Positions 13,266-29,104 of a DNA stretch of 54,900 nt are shown here, in pieces. The DNA lies in assembly GCA_018711135.1 (NCBI GenBank), contig DVIS01000033.1, forward strand, positions 1 to 54,900. The letters run 5' to 3'. Source of the stretch: Candidatus Onthousia faecavium. Its GTDB lineage: Bacteria > Bacillota_I > Bacilli_A > RF39 > UBA660. Positions within the stretch are counted from its first letter, which is position 1. Each line of letters begins with the position of its first letter. The notes below the pieces were generated by a model, which made no database searches, was not told the DNA's origin, and saw nothing but the letters and a program-made list of their open reading frames with translations. The position numbers and the translations under genes are program-made.

Positions 13266-14903
13266 ATGAATAAAGAGTTGGCAGATTTACTTTTTAAAGA
13301 TGTAAAGATAACAGTAGAGGAGATTGAAGAAAAATATAAAGAGAGAAATTTGCCTGATGGGGCTTATGTAACAAGATTTGGACCATCACCAACAGGATTT
13401 ATGCATGTTGGTAATTTATATGGTGCTTTTATTAGTTCATTGCTCGCTAAACAAACAGGGGGAGTTTTTTATCTGAGAATTGAAGATACTGATAGTAAAA
13501 GAGAGAAAGTTGGAGCAATCGAAGCGATTATCGATGGTCTTAAAGCTTTTGATATAAATTATACAGAAGGTTATGGAGTAGGTGGAGATTATGGTCCATA
13601 TATTCAAAGTGAACGTGTTGATATCTACAAAGCCTATGCTAAAAAGTTAGTTAGTGAAGGTAAAGCTTATCCTTGTTTTATGACGGAAGAAGAATTAGCA
13701 GAAATTAGAAGCGGGCAAGAATTAAGAAAAGAAAAGATTGGTATTTATGGTAGTTATGCGGTTGATAGAGATTTATCTTTTGACGAGATAAAGGAACATC
13801 TTGCTAAAGGAGATAGTTATGTTATTCGTCTTAAATCTCCTGGAGATTCTCATAATAATATAATTCTTCATGACTTAATAAAAGGTGATATCACTCTTCC
13901 AGAAAATGATATTGATGAGGTTATTCTAAAAAAAGATGGTATTCCAACTTACCATTTCGCTCATGTCATAGATGATCATTTAATGCATACTACTCATGTT
14001 TTAAGAGGTGATGAATGGGTACCTAGTTTTCCAAAACATTTACAACTTAATCAAGTTTTAGGTTTTAAACCTTGTAAATATGCTCATATTGCACCTCTTA
14101 CCAAAAAAGAAGATGGTAAAATCCGTAAATTTAGTAAGCGAAAAGATCCAGAATTTGCTGTTAGTTACTATGAAGAAGCAGGTATTCCAAAAGACGGAGT
14201 TAGACTATACCTTGCTACACTTGCTAATACTAACTTTGAAGAATGGTATTTACAAAATAAAGATAAATCTATTGAAGACTTTAAATTCTCCTTTAAGAAA
14301 ATGCCTACTGGGGGAACTCTATTTGATATGGAGAAATTAAATAATATTTGTAGAACATATTTCTCAAGAATTAGTGCCGAAACAATTTATAATGATGCCT
14401 TAGACTATTATAAAAAGTATGATCAAGACTTTTATGAATTGATGGTAAAAGATAAAGACAAACTAACTGCCTTCTTAAATATAGAACGTGATAGTAAAAG
14501 GCCAAGAAAGGATATTGCTACTTATAAAGATATAAAGATAGAAAGTTCATATATTTTTAATGATATATTCTATCAAGATAGAAATGAAACATATAAAGAT
14601 ATAAATGAAGATATTGACTTTGATATTGTTAATAAATATATAGAAATATATCAAGACTTTAACAGTGAAGATGAGTGGTATAATCAGATTAAAGTTTTAG
14701 CTGAAGAAAATGGTTATGCTCCTAGTGTTAAAATGTATAAAGAAAATCCAACTCTTTATAAAGGTCATATTGGTGATGTATGTGAAATGATTAGACATTT
14801 ACTTACAGGTAGAGTAAAAACTCCTAATCTATATCAGTTATTAAAAATTATTGGTATAGAAGAATTTAAGAAAAGAGTAGATTTTTATACAACTGAAAAG
14901 TAA
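13266..14903 (+). CDS. gltX: Glutamyl-tRNA synthetase
   Basis: A class I aminoacyl-tRNA synthetase of 545 residues that charges tRNA-Glu (and, in most Firmicutes, misacylates tRNA-Gln). The Rossmann fold has RFGPSPTGFMHVGN, where HVGN is the HIGH motif. The KMSKS loop is KFSKRKDPE, as in a clostridial/Mollicute-like GluRS branch. The anticodon-binding half follows from about residue 320. The start at 13266 has GAGGGAGAG upstream. A tRNA-Gln gene directly precedes it and a tRNA-Glu lies 2 kb downstream, which may be coincidence. Confidence 0.95.
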   Translation: MNKELADLLFKDVKITVEEIEEKYKERNLPDGAYVTRFGPSPTGFMHVGNLYGAFISSLLAKQTGGVFYLRIEDTDSKREKVGAIEAIIDGLKAFDINYTEGYGVGGDYGPYIQSERVDIYKAYAKKLVSEGKAYPCFMTEEELAEIRSGQELRKEKIGIYGSYAVDRDLSFDEIKEHLAKGDSYVIRLKSPGDSHNNIILHDLIKGDITLPENDIDEVILKKDGIPTYHFAHVIDDHLMHTTHVLRGDEWVPSFPKHLQLNQVLGFKPCKYAHIAPLTKKEDGKIRKFSKRKDPEFAVSYYEEAGIPKDGVRLYLATLANTNFEEWYLQNKDKSIEDFKFSFKKMPTGGTLFDMEKLNNICRTYFSRISAETIYNDALDYYKKYDQDFYELMVKDKDKLTAFLNIERDSKRPRKDIATYKDIKIESSYIFNDIFYQDRNETYKDINEDIDFDIVNKYIEIYQDFNSEDEWYNQIKVLAEENGYAPSVKMYKENPTLYKGHIGDVCEMIRHLLTGRVKTPNLYQLLKIIGIEEFKKRVDFYTTEK

Positions 14904-14926
14904 TATATAATAACTAAATTACTATG

Positions 14927-14958
14927 AAAAGTTAAGAAATTACTTGACTTTTTTCTTT
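14927..14958 (+). terminator. Terminator after gltX
   Basis: Ten-base-pair stem with one G-T pair (AAAAGTTAAG at 14927-14936 with CTTGACTTTT at 14943-14952), continuing into a T-rich tail. Confidence 0.65.
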
Positions 14959-15006
14959 TGTATTAAATTTCGTTTTTTAACTATACTATAAAGGGATGGT
15001 GATAAC

Positions 15007-16314
15007 GTGGAAATAAAGAAAGAAATTCTTGAAGAGATTAATAACAATTATAACCAAAATATAGAAAATAGAACGGTGAGATGTGCCCTTGTAAATAATA
15101 AAATTAGAGATATTATGAGAAATAAAGAAAGAGAAGGAAAACTGCTTTTTAATTTTTCTCTTAATGTTGATACTTTAAATGTAGTTAATCAAAAAAATTC
15201 TAATAATTCCTTTATTTATGCAGGATGTAATGTGTTAAGAGAAGCTATTTGTAAGAAATATAACTTAGAAGATTTTGAAATTTCTCAAAACTTTATTGCT
15301 TTTTATGATAAATTGGAAAAGTGTAATTATATCATGGAAAATCTGATTGAACTTAAAGATAGAGATATAGATGATAGGGAAAGATATCATATTTTAACGA
15401 GAGGGCTAAAAGATGGAGGACAATGGGAGTTATTTGCTAATATTGTAAATAAATATGGAATGGTTCCTAAAACGGTTATGAGTGATACCTATCAAAGTTC
15501 TAATCCTGATGAGATGAATCACCTTCTTAGTAGAAAATTAAGACAATTTAATGCTAGAATATTAACGAATAAAGACAATTTGGAATTTTTAAAGAGTTTA
15601 TATTTAGATGATATTTATCGAATTTTAGCTGATTGTTATGGAGTGCCTCCAAAATATTTCGATTTTGAATATACTGATAAAGATAAAAAATATCATATCA
15701 TCAAAGATATAACACCGTTGGAATTTTATCTAGAATATACTGATATAGATGTTAATGATTATGTATGTGTTATAAATGCTCCAACTCAAGATAAACCTGT
15801 TAATAGAACTTATACTGTTAAATATTTAGGAAATGTTATAGAAGGGAATAGAGTTTTATATCTTAATCTTGCTATTGATGATTTGAAAAAGTTAGTTATT
15901 AAGCAGTTACAAGCGAAGGAAACTGTCTTTCTTGGGTGCGACTGGAAGAAGGTAATTGATGAAGGTGATGGAGTATTTGATGATAGGAGTTTTAATTATT
16001 ATGATACTTTTAAAACAGATTTTTTTATGACTAAAGAAGAAATGTTAAGTAATTATGAGAGCTCTATAAATCATGATGTAGTTATTACAGGGGTTAATTT
16101 AGATGATGGAGTACCTACTAAGTGGAAAATAGAAAATAGTTGGGGTGAACAAGTAGGGAATAAAGGATATTTTGTTGCTAGTGATAGTTGGTTTGATAAG
16201 TATGTATATCAAGCGGTTATTAATAAGAAATATTTATCTAAAGAGCAATTAGATGAGCTGGAGATTGAGCCAGTAGAGTTAAAACCATGGGATCCTATGG
16301 GAACACTTGCATGA
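15007..16314 (+). CDS. Aminopeptidase C / bleomycin hydrolase family protein with catalytic Cys replaced by Ser
   Basis: A 435-residue member of peptidase family C1B (PepC), cytosolic hexameric aminopeptidases. Family blocks are clear: VNQKNSN at about residue 62, YGMVPKTVM, the His block HDVVITGVN, and the Asn block WKIENSWGEQVGNKGYF. However, the nucleophile motif, normally NQ-x-SGRCW, reads NQKNSNNSF here, so the Cys position is Ser (codon tcc near 15211). The oxyanion Gln, His and Asn are kept. The protein is therefore probably an inactive or altered paralogue. It starts with GTG after GGGATGG and is followed by an inverted repeat at about 16347-16371. Confidence 0.85.
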   Translation: MEIKKEILEEINNNYNQNIENRTVRCALVNNKIRDIMRNKEREGKLLFNFSLNVDTLNVVNQKNSNNSFIYAGCNVLREAICKKYNLEDFEISQNFIAFYDKLEKCNYIMENLIELKDRDIDDRERYHILTRGLKDGGQWELFANIVNKYGMVPKTVMSDTYQSSNPDEMNHLLSRKLRQFNARILTNKDNLEFLKSLYLDDIYRILADCYGVPPKYFDFEYTDKDKKYHIIKDITPLEFYLEYTDIDVNDYVCVINAPTQDKPVNRTYTVKYLGNVIEGNRVLYLNLAIDDLKKLVIKQLQAKETVFLGCDWKKVIDEGDGVFDDRSFNYYDTFKTDFFMTKEEMLSNYESSINHDVVITGVNLDDGVPTKWKIENSWGEQVGNKGYFVASDSWFDKYVYQAVINKKYLSKEQLDELEIEPVELKPWDPMGTLA

Positions 16315-16390
16315 CTTAATTTAGTATGTTAATATATCTCTAAAGGATTAAGATTACTAGTAATATCTTAATTGGAAAGAAGGAAATAAT

Positions 16391-16867
16391 ATGAATAACG
16401 AATTAAAATACCCTAGAGTTTAGGCATTATTGGAGATGCGAAAAGAATGTTCTATGAAATATACAAGATTTGAGGAAACTATAGGTGTTGTGGTATCTCC
16501 TTGCTATTTAGTAGGAGAAAAATCTACTTATTATAAGGATGGTACTACTAAAAAAGAATATGATGTCGTATTTCCTAGAACTGCTGATGATATATTTCAT
16601 AATTACTTTGATAAAGAGCGTGTTCCAGAATATAATCTTGATGGTTATACTAATATAGTTTCTGTTTCCTTTGTTACTTCTAGTTATGAAGAAGCGATTG
16701 AAAAAAGAAATGAAATGATAGAGAAAAACATATTTAATGAAATTCATTCATTTCTACCACTAGAACCTATTGGGTCACTTGCTGAAAGATGTGATGAATA
16801 TATGAAAAAAATCGAAGAATATCAACAAAGACTTAATAATGTTGAACCTAAAGAACAAGTTAAGTGA
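16391..16867 (+). pseudogene. Hypothetical gene with in-frame amber stop at codon 11
   Basis: A good ribosome site (AAGAAGGA) leads into ATG at 16391, but the frame reads MNNELKYPRV and then TAG at 16421-16423. The same frame then stays open to 16867. Without the stop the product would be about 158 residues with a charged, probably helical C-terminus (residues after PIGSLAERCDEYM) and no recognised domain. Restart codons at 16430 (TTG), 16436 or 16454 (ATG) have weak or badly spaced ribosome sites. TAG is used as a normal stop elsewhere here, so this is a nonsense mutation, a restart, or a sequencing error. Confidence 0.6.
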
Positions 16868-17067: not shown

Positions 17068-17099
17068 ATTTCTCTTACGAGAGAGAAGAGGTGTTTAAA

Positions 17100-17924
17100 G
17101 TGCTCCAATTACCTATGACAATAAAAGATATAACTGTAAATGTTACGATAAACTTTAATAATATTACGGTAGAAAAAGATAAATTAGATTCTAGAGCAAT
17201 TGGGCTTGAAGCAAGTGATGTTGTTGTTGATAGGACTAATATTAAATCTTTAAGAAATGACGAATATTATAGTAAGAATCATCAAGCTTTAACTAATATA
17301 ATTAGAAAAAATATTAACTATAGTAATAGAACGCTAACTAATATTAAGGTTACAACTAAGAAATATAAGGATAGTGATTTTTATGATGTATATTATCTTC
17401 CTTTACCACCTTTTGCTACTAATCCAATAACAGATTATATTTATGGAGCTCTTGTAAATAGTATAAGGTTAAGTACGCCTGATTTAGAGAAAAAAGTTTA
17501 TTTAGATTTGCATAAAGTAGGATTTGATAATTTGATTTCTAAAGACTTTTTGAATCATCTTTTGACATTAAAAAATAATTTTTTAGATCCTTATATTCTT
17601 GAAGAAAAAATTAGAAAAGACGGGTATGGTAGTCAATTAGAGGTTTTAGATTTTCTTAATAGTTTAAATTACGAAATAGATAATGATGATTTCATTGTAA
17701 CTAGTGAAATAGATAATGTTATTAATTTTCTATCTAGAGACAGTAAAGAAGGAAGAAAACTAGCTAATTATAAGAATATGGCGATGAGTAATTATGAATC
17801 TTATCTAGCTTTGGGTACCTTTAATAATATTGTTTATAATCGTCCTCTTGCCTGGCCTAGTCTTTCATTAGATCAACAAAAGACATTAAGATTAAAACTA
17901 AATTCTAAAAGAAATGTGGCTTAA
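17100..17924 (+). CDS. Hypothetical protein
   Basis: I do not recognise this 274-residue protein. It has no signal peptide or membrane segment. The composition is Asn-, Asp- and Lys-rich, with a central block YLPLPPFATNPITDY. The ribosome site AGAGGTG fits a GTG start at 17100 better than the GTG at 17091, which overlaps that site. It is the first gene of a probable three-gene unit with tcdA and an RNB ribonuclease; the spacing to tcdA is one base, which hints at a link to RNA metabolism without proving it. Confidence 0.7.
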   Translation: MLQLPMTIKDITVNVTINFNNITVEKDKLDSRAIGLEASDVVVDRTNIKSLRNDEYYSKNHQALTNIIRKNINYSNRTLTNIKVTTKKYKDSDFYDVYYLPLPPFATNPITDYIYGALVNSIRLSTPDLEKKVYLDLHKVGFDNLISKDFLNHLLTLKNNFLDPYILEEKIRKDGYGSQLEVLDFLNSLNYEIDNDDFIVTSEIDNVINFLSRDSKEGRKLANYKNMAMSNYESYLALGTFNNIVYNRPLAWPSLSLDQQKTLRLKLNSKRNVA

Positions 17925-18614: not shown

Positions 18615-20285
18615 ATGAAAGAGACGAGTTTTTTAAGACATTTTGTTTCGTCAGTTTTTTTTGTCTGTAATTTTGAGGAAATTGATAGTTATATTAAAAA
18701 ATTATTAAATTCTCCTTTGGAAACATTAGATGATTCAACTATTAAAGAACTAGAAAAAATTAAAGGACAGCTTGTTTATAATAGTACAGTTATGGGAAGT
18801 AAAAGAAGCCTTGATTTTAGTGCTAATATAGAATTGTTGCTTTTTAGATACAAAGAAAAAGATTCTAAGACTTATCAGTTAATATCTTTATTATTAAAGA
18901 GAAATTTTCAGGAAGAAGAATTAATTTGGGCATTAAATTCCGTAGGAGATTATAGATGGATAATAAAAAAACTGTTATTAAAAAAGACTGATATTTTAGA
19001 TTGTAGTGATAATACTATGCATACTATTAGAGATTATCTAGGAAAGGATCTTTGGTATAATAATTTTATTAAAGAAAAAAGTGTTGCTAAAGCGACAAAA
19101 ATTTTAAATAATTTAGATAAGGAAGAGCTTAAAGAGGAAGATATTACTTTAGAGTTGAAATCATTATTACGGGTTTTAGAGTATGATAATCTTAAGACTA
19201 GTGTAACTATTGGAATAGTTCAAATGTTGAAAAATTATGAGAATAAGTTGTTACAAGATGGAAATAGTGATATTTCTTTGCTAGTAGGAAAGATAAAGGA
19301 AAGATTGTTAGCTGATACATATAATAGAATTACCTATAAATTAGTGAATGAAGAACTAGATCTTAGTTTGGGAGAAAATTTTGTTAAACCTATAAACTAT
19401 TTAAAAGAAGAACTTGATTTATTAAAGAAAACGGGACCAGTTATAACTTTAGATGAGATAACATCACCTGATTTAGATAGTGCTTTTGCTATTACTAAAC
19501 AAGATGATCTTTTTCTATTTGATGTCTATGTTACTGATGTTCCTTCCTTTCTTAGTGTAAACAGAAATCTTAGTATAAATGCTTTTAAACAAGGTAGTAG
19601 TTTCTATATAAGAGATAATAAAGTTAATATTAACTACGATATGCTTCCTAAAAATTTATCACATGACTATTTAAGTATGACTAAGAAAACGACTAAAAAG
19701 GAAAAGGCAGCGATTTGTTTTCATTATATTATTGATAAAAATGGAAATATTTGCTCTTTAGAATTAGAAAGAAAAATGGTTGTAGTCGATTTTAATTTAT
19801 TTAAAAATGATGCGGAAAGGATTTTGAAAAATAAACAACAGTTGACTCTTGTAGATAAATCTCTTTTTTACTTAAGAAATCTATGTAGAATAGTAGGAAA
19901 AAATAGTGATGATAAAAGAAAAAACTTGGCTAGTTTAAGACGAGGAACTATAAGTGATATGATTGCTTTTCCTTCAGTCTTAGTTAATTACAGTTTAGCT
20001 GATAAGTTGGAGTTTGGAATATATCGAAATGAGGGAGCTTTTACAATTTCGAAGAGTAATATTTTATATGCTCGTGGAGGTGCTCCTTTAAGAAGGTATG
20101 CTGATGATATAAATTTGGCTATTTTGTTAGAACAAGAAAATCTACAAAGATTTGCAAGAGATGACTTTCGATATCTTGAAAATAATCTTGAGGAGATTGT
20201 AGATCATTTGAATGAACAGGATAGTATAGAAAAATATATTAGAAAGAATAATGAAATAGTTAAAAAATATTGTTTAAAAAAATAA
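18615..20285 (+). CDS. RNB-domain ribonuclease (RNase II/R family), no cold-shock or S1 domain
   Basis: A 556-residue protein whose second half is an RNase II-type catalytic domain: VITLDEITSPDLDSAF (about residues 274-289) lines up with the active-site block, and ARGGAPLRRYADDINLAI with the conserved SPIRRYAD block. In RNase II the block has four Asp ending in D-x-D-D; here it ends D-L-D-S, so one metal-site Asp is Ser. The first 260 residues are helical and unrecognised, and there is no recognisable CSD or S1 RNA-binding domain. It may be a weakened or specialised 3'-5' exoribonuclease. It begins three bases after tcdA. Confidence 0.75.
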   Translation: MKETSFLRHFVSSVFFVCNFEEIDSYIKKLLNSPLETLDDSTIKELEKIKGQLVYNSTVMGSKRSLDFSANIELLLFRYKEKDSKTYQLISLLLKRNFQEEELIWALNSVGDYRWIIKKLLLKKTDILDCSDNTMHTIRDYLGKDLWYNNFIKEKSVAKATKILNNLDKEELKEEDITLELKSLLRVLEYDNLKTSVTIGIVQMLKNYENKLLQDGNSDISLLVGKIKERLLADTYNRITYKLVNEELDLSLGENFVKPINYLKEELDLLKKTGPVITLDEITSPDLDSAFAITKQDDLFLFDVYVTDVPSFLSVNRNLSINAFKQGSSFYIRDNKVNINYDMLPKNLSHDYLSMTKKTTKKEKAAICFHYIIDKNGNICSLELERKMVVVDFNLFKNDAERILKNKQQLTLVDKSLFYLRNLCRIVGKNSDDKRKNLASLRRGTISDMIAFPSVLVNYSLADKLEFGIYRNEGAFTISKSNILYARGGAPLRRYADDINLAILLEQENLQRFARDDFRYLENNLEEIVDHLNEQDSIEKYIRKNNEIVKKYCLKK

Positions 20286-28112: not shown

Positions 28113-28201
28113 ATTTACCCTCCTTAAATGTATTGCTATTATAACATAGTATTTTTACAAAATAAAGCTTTAGGTATATAATATATATGAGGAGGATGTC
28201 T

Positions 28202-29104
28202 ATGAACTTACTAGTTGCGAAAGATAACTTTCTTAATTACTGTGAATTTGAAAAGAATCTTGCTAATAATACTTTGAAATCTTATAGTTATGAATTGAAA
28301 GACTATTTTAGATTTTTAGAAAAGAAAAATAAAACTACTATTAATGGAATAACTAAAGAAGATATAGAAGAGTATTTAAAATATTGTTATGATAGAAAAG
28401 AAAATAGTAAAACGGTTGCTCATAAATTAACAACGATTAATAACTTTCATCAATATTTAGAGAAAATGGAAAATGAACCTAATAATCCTGCTAATTTTAT
28501 AGATAGACCTAAGACTATGAAAACTTTACCTCATAGTTTAACGATAGAAGATGTAGATAAGCTTTTAGATATTGAATTAAAGACACCATTTGACTATCGT
28601 AATAAAGCTATGCTAGAATTGATGTATGGTTCTGGTTTAAGAGTATCAGAACTCGTTAGTTTAACGGTGTATGATCTAGACTTTAATAATGCTATTATTA
28701 GAATAAAAGGTAAAGGTAGTAAAGAAAGAATTGTTCCTTTAAATGATACTGCTATTAAATATTTGAAATTGTATTTAGAAAGAAGAGATGAGTTACTTAA
28801 GAAAAAACAGAGTGATTCTCTTTTCTTAAACTCAAGAGGGACTGCTATATCTAGACAAGGTTTTTTTAAAAATTTGAAGGAAATATTAAAGCAGAAGGGA
28901 CTTGATCCTGATATTTCCCCACATAGTCTTAGACACTCTTTTGCTACTCATCTTTTAAATGGGGGAGCTGATCTTAGAAGTATTCAATTGCTTTTAGGAC
29001 ATTCTGATATTTCTACAACAAGAATTTATACTCATATAACTAATGATAAAATTAAACAAGATTATTTAAATAACCATCCAAGAGCGAAAAAAGGAGAGAA
29101 ATAA
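28202..29104 (+). CDS. xerD: Site-specific tyrosine recombinase XerD
   Basis: A 300-residue tyrosine recombinase of the Xer type that resolves chromosome dimers at dif. The N-terminal SAM-like core-binding domain (about 1-90) is followed by the catalytic domain with RVSEL (Arg), KGKGSKER (Lys), HSLRHSFATHLLNGGADLRSIQ (His-x-x-Arg), GHSDIST and the nucleophile in TRIYTHI. Position next to deoB repeats the Bacillus ripX-drm order and favours XerD over XerC. The start at 28202 follows GAGGAGG. The dif site lies 1.8 kb downstream, and the inovirus-like element probably uses this protein. Confidence 0.9.
   Translation: MNLLVAKDNFLNYCEFEKNLANNTLKSYSYELKDYFRFLEKKNKTTINGITKEDIEEYLKYCYDRKENSKTVAHKLTTINNFHQYLEKMENEPNNPANFIDRPKTMKTLPHSLTIEDVDKLLDIELKTPFDYRNKAMLELMYGSGLRVSELVSLTVYDLDFNNAIIRIKGKGSKERIVPLNDTAIKYLKLYLERRDELLKKKQSDSLFLNSRGTAISRQGFFKNLKEILKQKGLDPDISPHSLRHSFATHLLNGGADLRSIQLLLGHSDISTTRIYTHITNDKIKQDYLNNHPRAKKGEK

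Follow-up and report, generated by a model that had tools for sequence, protein, structure and literature searches.

A PepC-family protein with serine at the catalytic cysteine position in Candidatus Onthousia, and signs of its exchange with the cysteine form between species

The window analyzed here is a stretch of 54,900 nucleotides from Candidatus Onthousia faecavium (contig DVIS01000033.1). On its forward strand, at 15007–16314, it carries a gene with a GTG start encoding a 435-residue protein of the PepC/bleomycin-hydrolase type, and the segment AAAGGGATGG (14990–14999, +), which lies 5' of the start codon, is by its position the likely ribosome-binding site. The PF03051 profile (Peptidase_C1_2) is matched from end to end (1–438 of 438) over residues 2–432 with an E-value of 1.3e-145 and 486 bits against a cut-off of 22, in agreement with the preliminary description of the gene as a PepC homologue, and the family is C1B in MEROPS. 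Among solved structures, the sequence comes nearest to that of aminopeptidase C (4k7c, E 2.5e-116). Immediately upstream, at 13266–14903 (+), is a gltX-like gene for a Glu/Gln-tRNA synthetase (PF00749), the constant upstream neighbor of pepC in the genus, found 5' of it in 27 of 30 loci (using the paired longer locus if needed), with the other three situated at contig edges. On the 3' side are two open reading frames without a Pfam match, at 16430–16867 (+, 145 aa) and 17091–17924 (+, 277 aa), whose place is conserved and whose sequence changes fast: identity in most genus loci is 31–59% for the shorter and 41–50% for the longer, and 85% and 87%, respectively, in genome G008. Farther along, at 28187–29104 (+), lies a tyrosine recombinase gene with Phage_integrase (PF00589) and SAM-like N-terminal domains.

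The nucleophile loop of the protein, residues 61–69 (15187–15213, +), reads NQKNSNNSF in place of NQKxSGRCW, and alignment puts Ser68 (codon TCC, 15208–15210, +) at the position of the catalytic cysteine. When the protein is aligned with 4k7c and human bleomycin hydrolase, the other site residues are seen to be in place, namely Gln62, the catalytic His356 (codon 16072–16074, within the His356-Asp357 pair at 16072–16077, +) and Asn377 (16135–16137, +), the third residue of the triad, which lies in the motif ENSWG and is neither Asp nor Glu. Both the substitution of serine for the catalytic cysteine and the retention of Gln, His, and Asn had been read from the sequence earlier, and both are borne out. 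Asp357 is private to the window protein among the genus rows, the others having mostly Ala. The C-terminus, PMGTLA, which would form the C-terminal arm that reaches the active site, is kept in the sequence. In alleles L004–L006, L011, L013–L015, and L021 the C-terminal Ala is followed by one additional Arg (LGMLAR, MGTLAR) that is absent from the window protein; in Gal6, the trimming of an extra residue from the C-terminus alters activity.

Modeled with AlphaFold2, the window protein gives a mean pLDDT of 93.2 and a pTM of 0.90, and the model of a Cys allele (pLDDT 94.5, pTM 0.91) has nearly identical secondary structure. With VIA-align, the window model superposes on PepW (4k7c) with a Z score of 56.8 and an rmsd of 1.3 over 435 aligned residues, and on human bleomycin hydrolase (1cb5), its engineered C73S form (7v5t), and yeast Gal6 (1gcb) with Z scores of 54.8, 54.1, and 50.9. 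Overall, the scores to PepW, the human enzyme, and Gal6 are 47–57, while those to SERA5 and the cathepsins are far lower (about 15). As modeled, the fold and general architecture are intact, as the preliminary description had held. Members of the PepC/bleomycin-hydrolase family are self-compartmentalizing homohexamers.

PepC matches are present in 31 of the 35 genomes of the genus (none in G004, G005, G010, and G018). Twenty-two of these have the Ser orthologue, five a Cys orthologue with 72–76% identity to the window protein, and three a distant Cys form (50–54%); the remaining one, G007, has a distant paralogue only. Named records matching the window protein at 76–78% include Candidatus Onthousia faecipullorum and Ca. 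O. excrementipullorum. A search for an intact pepC elsewhere in the window's own genome (1.28 Mb, 55 contigs, 92.45% complete) gave one PepC match only, and without a second one the suggestion that the protein inhibits an intact PepC is unlikely to apply here, as is a role as helper of one. A second full or partial PepC-like paralogue is found in 7 of the 22 Ser genomes (G006, G014, G015, G022, G025, G029, and G030), and in G009 and G033 the second PepC row is in each case a further piece of the same gene. The distant paralogues (L109–L118, 31–40% identity) are patchily distributed over G006, G007, G014, G015, G022, G024, G025, G029, and G030 and keep the cysteine wherever the site is covered; two of them, L117 and L118, have CNTFG instead of ENSWG in an open frame of about 387–408 aa. 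Tandem PepC pairs (L194/L195, L196/L197, L198/L199, L201/L202, and L203/L204) occur in small genomes that read through TGA codons, and both copies have Cys. For M42 aminopeptidase as a replacement, the genus gave weak partial matches only and no pattern with allele type was seen.

Outside the genus, only the Cys form was found in searches of the order and phylum (50 loci among the matches listed) and at 60 further chosen places, which together are a sample and not a census, as the residue was read in part of the order and phylum matches listed. A 122-row alignment that includes 12 earlier regions has 113 Cys rows, seven Ser rows, all of them Onthousia sequences retrieved a second time, and two without the column. 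The pooled set of 232 rows, deduplicated on residues 56–110, comprises 152 distinct Cys stretches, eight distinct Ser stretches, all within the genus, 68 duplicates, three rows without the column, and one apparent Lys, which belongs to a fragment (L050) that is missing that part of the gene. As to carriage by phages, viral contigs gave 22 pattern matches, none of which is a relative, and this possibility was rejected.

The Ser rows form one clade with full support (100/100) that adjoins the Cys orthologues in a 78-row PepC tree, and a single change of state is counted on this tree. It was built without the motif columns, and L050, L056, L107, sequences shorter than 300 residues, and nearly identical copies of a locus were omitted. 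The serine is encoded by TCT in 20 of the 22 Ser rows, by TCC in the window, and by AGT in one (L026, genome G016). L026 lies inside the Ser clade and has the derived residues F69, Y71, and D160. Two independent Cys-to-Ser origins were rejected by the AU test, both when L026 was grouped among the Cys rows (p = 0.0142) and when it was set apart from the two groups (p = 0.0143), the groups having been named once the tree had been seen. The codons and the tree together suggest that the serine has been kept through a change of codon class and that the hydroxyl is useful, although the change may have passed through Cys. The median NG86 omega is 0.116 within the Ser clade (210 pairs), 0.095 within the Cys alleles (10 pairs), and 0.234 between Ser and Cys (105 pairs), with the truncated L027 omitted. 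This is a pattern of constraint at present and of quicker protein change on the Ser stem. A replaced nucleophile in a gene under purifying selection, as here, is what would be expected of a SERA5-like pseudopeptidase.

The substitution does not stand alone. Near-invariant columns were defined as those with an identity of 94% or more across 33 Cys rows, comprising the five Cys alleles and 28 outgroup rows that we picked from a 110-row alignment, and 15 of the 77 such columns are altered in the Ser rows (G66, R67, C68, W69, F71, Q139, E160, I256, P264, W308, F309, M354, A357, M358, and L434). The 62 that are kept include Gln62, His356, Asn377, Trp379, the DGG of DGGQW, and the C-terminal Ala435. 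Within four residues of position 68, with 68 itself omitted, all four near-invariant columns are altered, versus 10 of 72 elsewhere (Fisher p = 0.0008), and when all four active-site residues are taken as centers the fractions are 7/14 near and 7/62 elsewhere (p = 0.003). Of 79 columns that are near-invariant in the 28 outgroup rows, 17 are altered in the Ser alleles versus four in the Cys alleles. The new states are mostly fixed, with F69, Y71, and D160 in 22/22 rows, N67 in 21/22, and L309 in 20/22, which argues for a new function and against decay. Ser68 and Gln62 are present in all 22 Ser rows, so that the catalytic cysteine is absent throughout the clade, and His356 and Asn377 in all 21 rows with a C-terminal part. 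In papain numbering, the S1-side loop that precedes the nucleophile presumably contains G66 and R67, and the S2 side Q139, 308–313, and 357.

The distribution of the two forms over the species differs from the single change on the PepC tree. On a PolA tree of 30 genomes (18 Ser and 5 Cys counted) there are five state changes and on an rpoB tree of 29 genomes (18 Ser and 4 Cys counted) there are four, both counts being approximate since support is low at many inner forks and no more than about 5 kb separates PolA from pepC. The window's genome (G000, Ser) and G008 (Cys) are sisters on both trees (100/99 and 100/100). Their DNA identity is 90–95% over most of gltX, 60–83% in pepC, and 83–97% downstream to about 18.6 kb. 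The inferred replacement tract extends from 14900 to 16350, where identity falls from 83–97% to 60–84%. The synonymous divergence follows this course, with a dS of 0.35 for gltX, 1.09 for pepC, 0.33 for the next open reading frame, and about 0.6 for the two after it. A second pair, G015 (Ser) and G024 (Cys), has flanks of 79–96% identity around a pepC of mostly 66–82%. Here dS is 0.72 in gltX, 0.83 in pepC, and 0.26–0.33 downstream, and dN is 0.04, 0.20, and 0.05–0.09, such that only dN and the downstream border stand out. These are the only two clean swaps; in seven other pairs (G017/G025, G017/G020, G026/G011, G027/G015, G024/G029, G024/G009, and G024/G001) the flanks differ or do not align. 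In each clean swap a single contig carries pepC together with its flanks, with chimeric bins as a caveat. The simplest reading is that the Ser and Cys forms would be two alleles of the gltX-pepC locus, and that the gene-sized replacement would have come about by homologous recombination between species.

Two further genes in the genus have irregular histories. An RNB-domain gene at 18615–20285 (+, PF00773) diverges strongly between G000 and G008 (243 codons aligned, pN 0.24) amid neighbors of 83–97% identity, and is possibly another replaced or fast-evolving gene. leuS was rejected as a species marker on account of its differing types in the genus (L261–L290), which have open frames of about 800 versus about 950 aa, with two copies or types in G016 and G002. 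The mixture suggests horizontal replacement of the tRNA synthetase.

As far as the residues present allow one to judge, cysteine-peptidase chemistry is lost in the Ser form, as there is no thiol. We propose, with a probability that we place a little below one half (about 0.48), that the Ser form is a pseudo-aminopeptidase, a peptide-binding protein of the PepC fold with a rebuilt site, and that the Ser and Cys forms are exchanged as alleles. In this mechanism, the active site would have been rebuilt once, in the ancestry of one allele clade, when Cys68 was replaced by Ser, and neighboring residues of the loop and pocket would have been altered together and then fixed. The Ser protein is maintained by selection and would most probably act as a chamber in which the N-termini of peptides are still bound by the conserved Gln-His-Asn frame and the C-terminal arm. 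The chamber would be a hexamer, as expected from family membership, and a physiological role of any kind is one that we infer. Serine-type turnover would be slow at best and fast catalysis absent, making the protein a pseudo-aminopeptidase in the sense in which SERA5 is a pseudo-endopeptidase. The retention of the serine as AGT in L026 versus TCT or TCC elsewhere makes the hydroxyl look selected and so counts against a pseudo-aminopeptidase, as does the fact that His, Asn, and Gln never drift. Of a functional Ser68 nucleophile and a protein that now only binds peptides, we lean slightly toward the second. The earlier view that the serine makes the protein an inactive scaffold or peptide binder is hence plausible in the light of SERA5, and is weakened by the partial activity cited for the C-to-S human bleomycin hydrolase and by the stability of the serine across codon classes.

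The main competitor of the pseudo-aminopeptidase, which we consider a substantial though lesser possibility, is a working serine aminopeptidase. Ser68 would be the nucleophile, activated by His356 and Asn377 with Gln62 as the oxyanion residue; the changes R67N, W69F, F71Y, Q139V, and F309L would fit the pocket to serine chemistry or to new substrates, and the gain would perhaps be resistance to thiol oxidation or to thiol-directed inhibitors. The unbroken Gln/His/Asn set, a serine stable over a codon-class change, and strong purifying selection all favor such an enzyme. According to an excerpt of PMC10318531, C-to-S forms of human bleomycin hydrolase and congopain kept non-negligible activity, which a negatively charged pocket may help, and its reference 46 bears a title on converting the human enzyme from a cysteine protease to one of the serine type. 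The loss of Arg67 removes a positive charge beside the serine and is thus in the direction that this source says helps C-to-S enzymes. Over the whole protein, charge ranges from –8 to –15 in the Ser alleles and from –8 to –18 in the Cys alleles, and the lack of an overall negative shift argues against a simple electrostatic explanation. Active Ser variants of the C1 family are on record in the available text of PMC9825947, but the same text describes serine as extremely rare in the N-delta (papain-type) triads, whose third residue is Asn and which disfavor it, while serine peptidases have an N-epsilon-configured triad with an acidic third residue. In addition, G66 and the residue after His356 are altered in several Ser rows, and SERA5, with Ser/His/Asn intact, had no detectable activity: the portion of PMC4671257 that describes it reports that the Ser596 protein was inactive in this sense, that S596C restored activity, and that S596A had no phenotype, although an excerpt of PMC5500368 has SERA5 regulating egress nonetheless. 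We think it rather unlikely that the broader claim holds in full, namely that PepC has naturally become a serine-nucleophile enzyme in an N-delta triad, with thiol and hydroxyl alleles swapped repeatedly among gut Onthousia and the nucleophile exchangeable under diversifying selection.

The many active-site changes, fixed and not drifting, would also fit a rebuilt site that performs transfer, ligation, or non-peptide hydrolysis, for which silicatein is the precedent (PMC9825947, in excerpt). There is no substrate, operon partner, or ligand to suggest such chemistry, and pepC lies beside gltX without pathway context, which makes this improbable. Decay of a gene that has lost PepC activity and is still undisrupted would account for the raised Ser-Cys omega of 0.234 and the loss of otherwise near-invariant residues, yet the omega of 0.116 within the Ser clade, the absence of internal stops from the listed genus orthologues, and the fixation of the new states over about 22 species leave it very little likelihood. 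An error of sequencing or assembly has in its favor only that one substitution separates the codon from a Cys codon, and we regard it as negligible and reject it: the serine stands at the same codon in 21 other genomes, assembled independently from other species of the genus, with neighboring residues altered too. A corrected read giving a Cys codon, the refutation that had been proposed, is contradicted by these genomes, and because G66, R67, W69, and F71 are also replaced, one corrected base could not restore the motif.

Serine in papain-type triads is rare enough that examples are listed case by case (PMC9825947, in the part available). Here, one bacterial lineage supplies about 22 natural Ser forms, Cys forms at 72–76% identity, and close species pairs that differ sharply at pepC. 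Such sets allow two long-standing questions to be put to a direct test: which changes a papain-type active site needs around its nucleophile when Cys is replaced by Ser, and whether Ser-type papain-like proteins are enzymes or binders. If the proposed exchange is correct, this would be a rare bacterial case of an active-site state acting as a recombining allele.

A literature search of open-licence PMC papers found neither a natural Ser-type PepC or bleomycin hydrolase nor Ser and Cys forms as exchangeable PepC alleles. The Cys-to-Ser change itself is already known elsewhere in the papain superfamily and has been engineered in a member of the PepC/bleomycin-hydrolase family. Like the window protein, Plasmodium SERA5 naturally has Ser for the papain-type Cys and keeps His and Asn (PMC4671257, in excerpt). 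It differs in belonging to the eukaryotic cathepsin-like endopeptidase branch, with about 20% identity over 216 residues and a Z score of 15.6. The silicateins are a sponge branch of the cathepsins. They share with the window protein the papain fold and the Cys-to-Ser change, and have a different activity in the account available from PMC9825947, but theirs is siloxane chemistry, and only a cathepsin/silicatein chimera (2vhs) appears in the fold list. Much closer is PepW/aminopeptidase C of Lactobacillus (4k7c), which resembles the window protein over the full-length sequence and fold, with 44–45% identity, the same Gln/His/Asn, and a C-terminal Ala, and differs in having a Cys nucleophile in an SGRCWxF loop where the window protein has Ser in SNNSFxY. 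Engineered C73S human bleomycin hydrolase (7v5t; also 2cb5) combines the same family with the same substitution, at a Z score of about 54, but there it is a laboratory change, whereas that in the window is natural, is accompanied by changes in neighboring residues, and is fixed in a clade.
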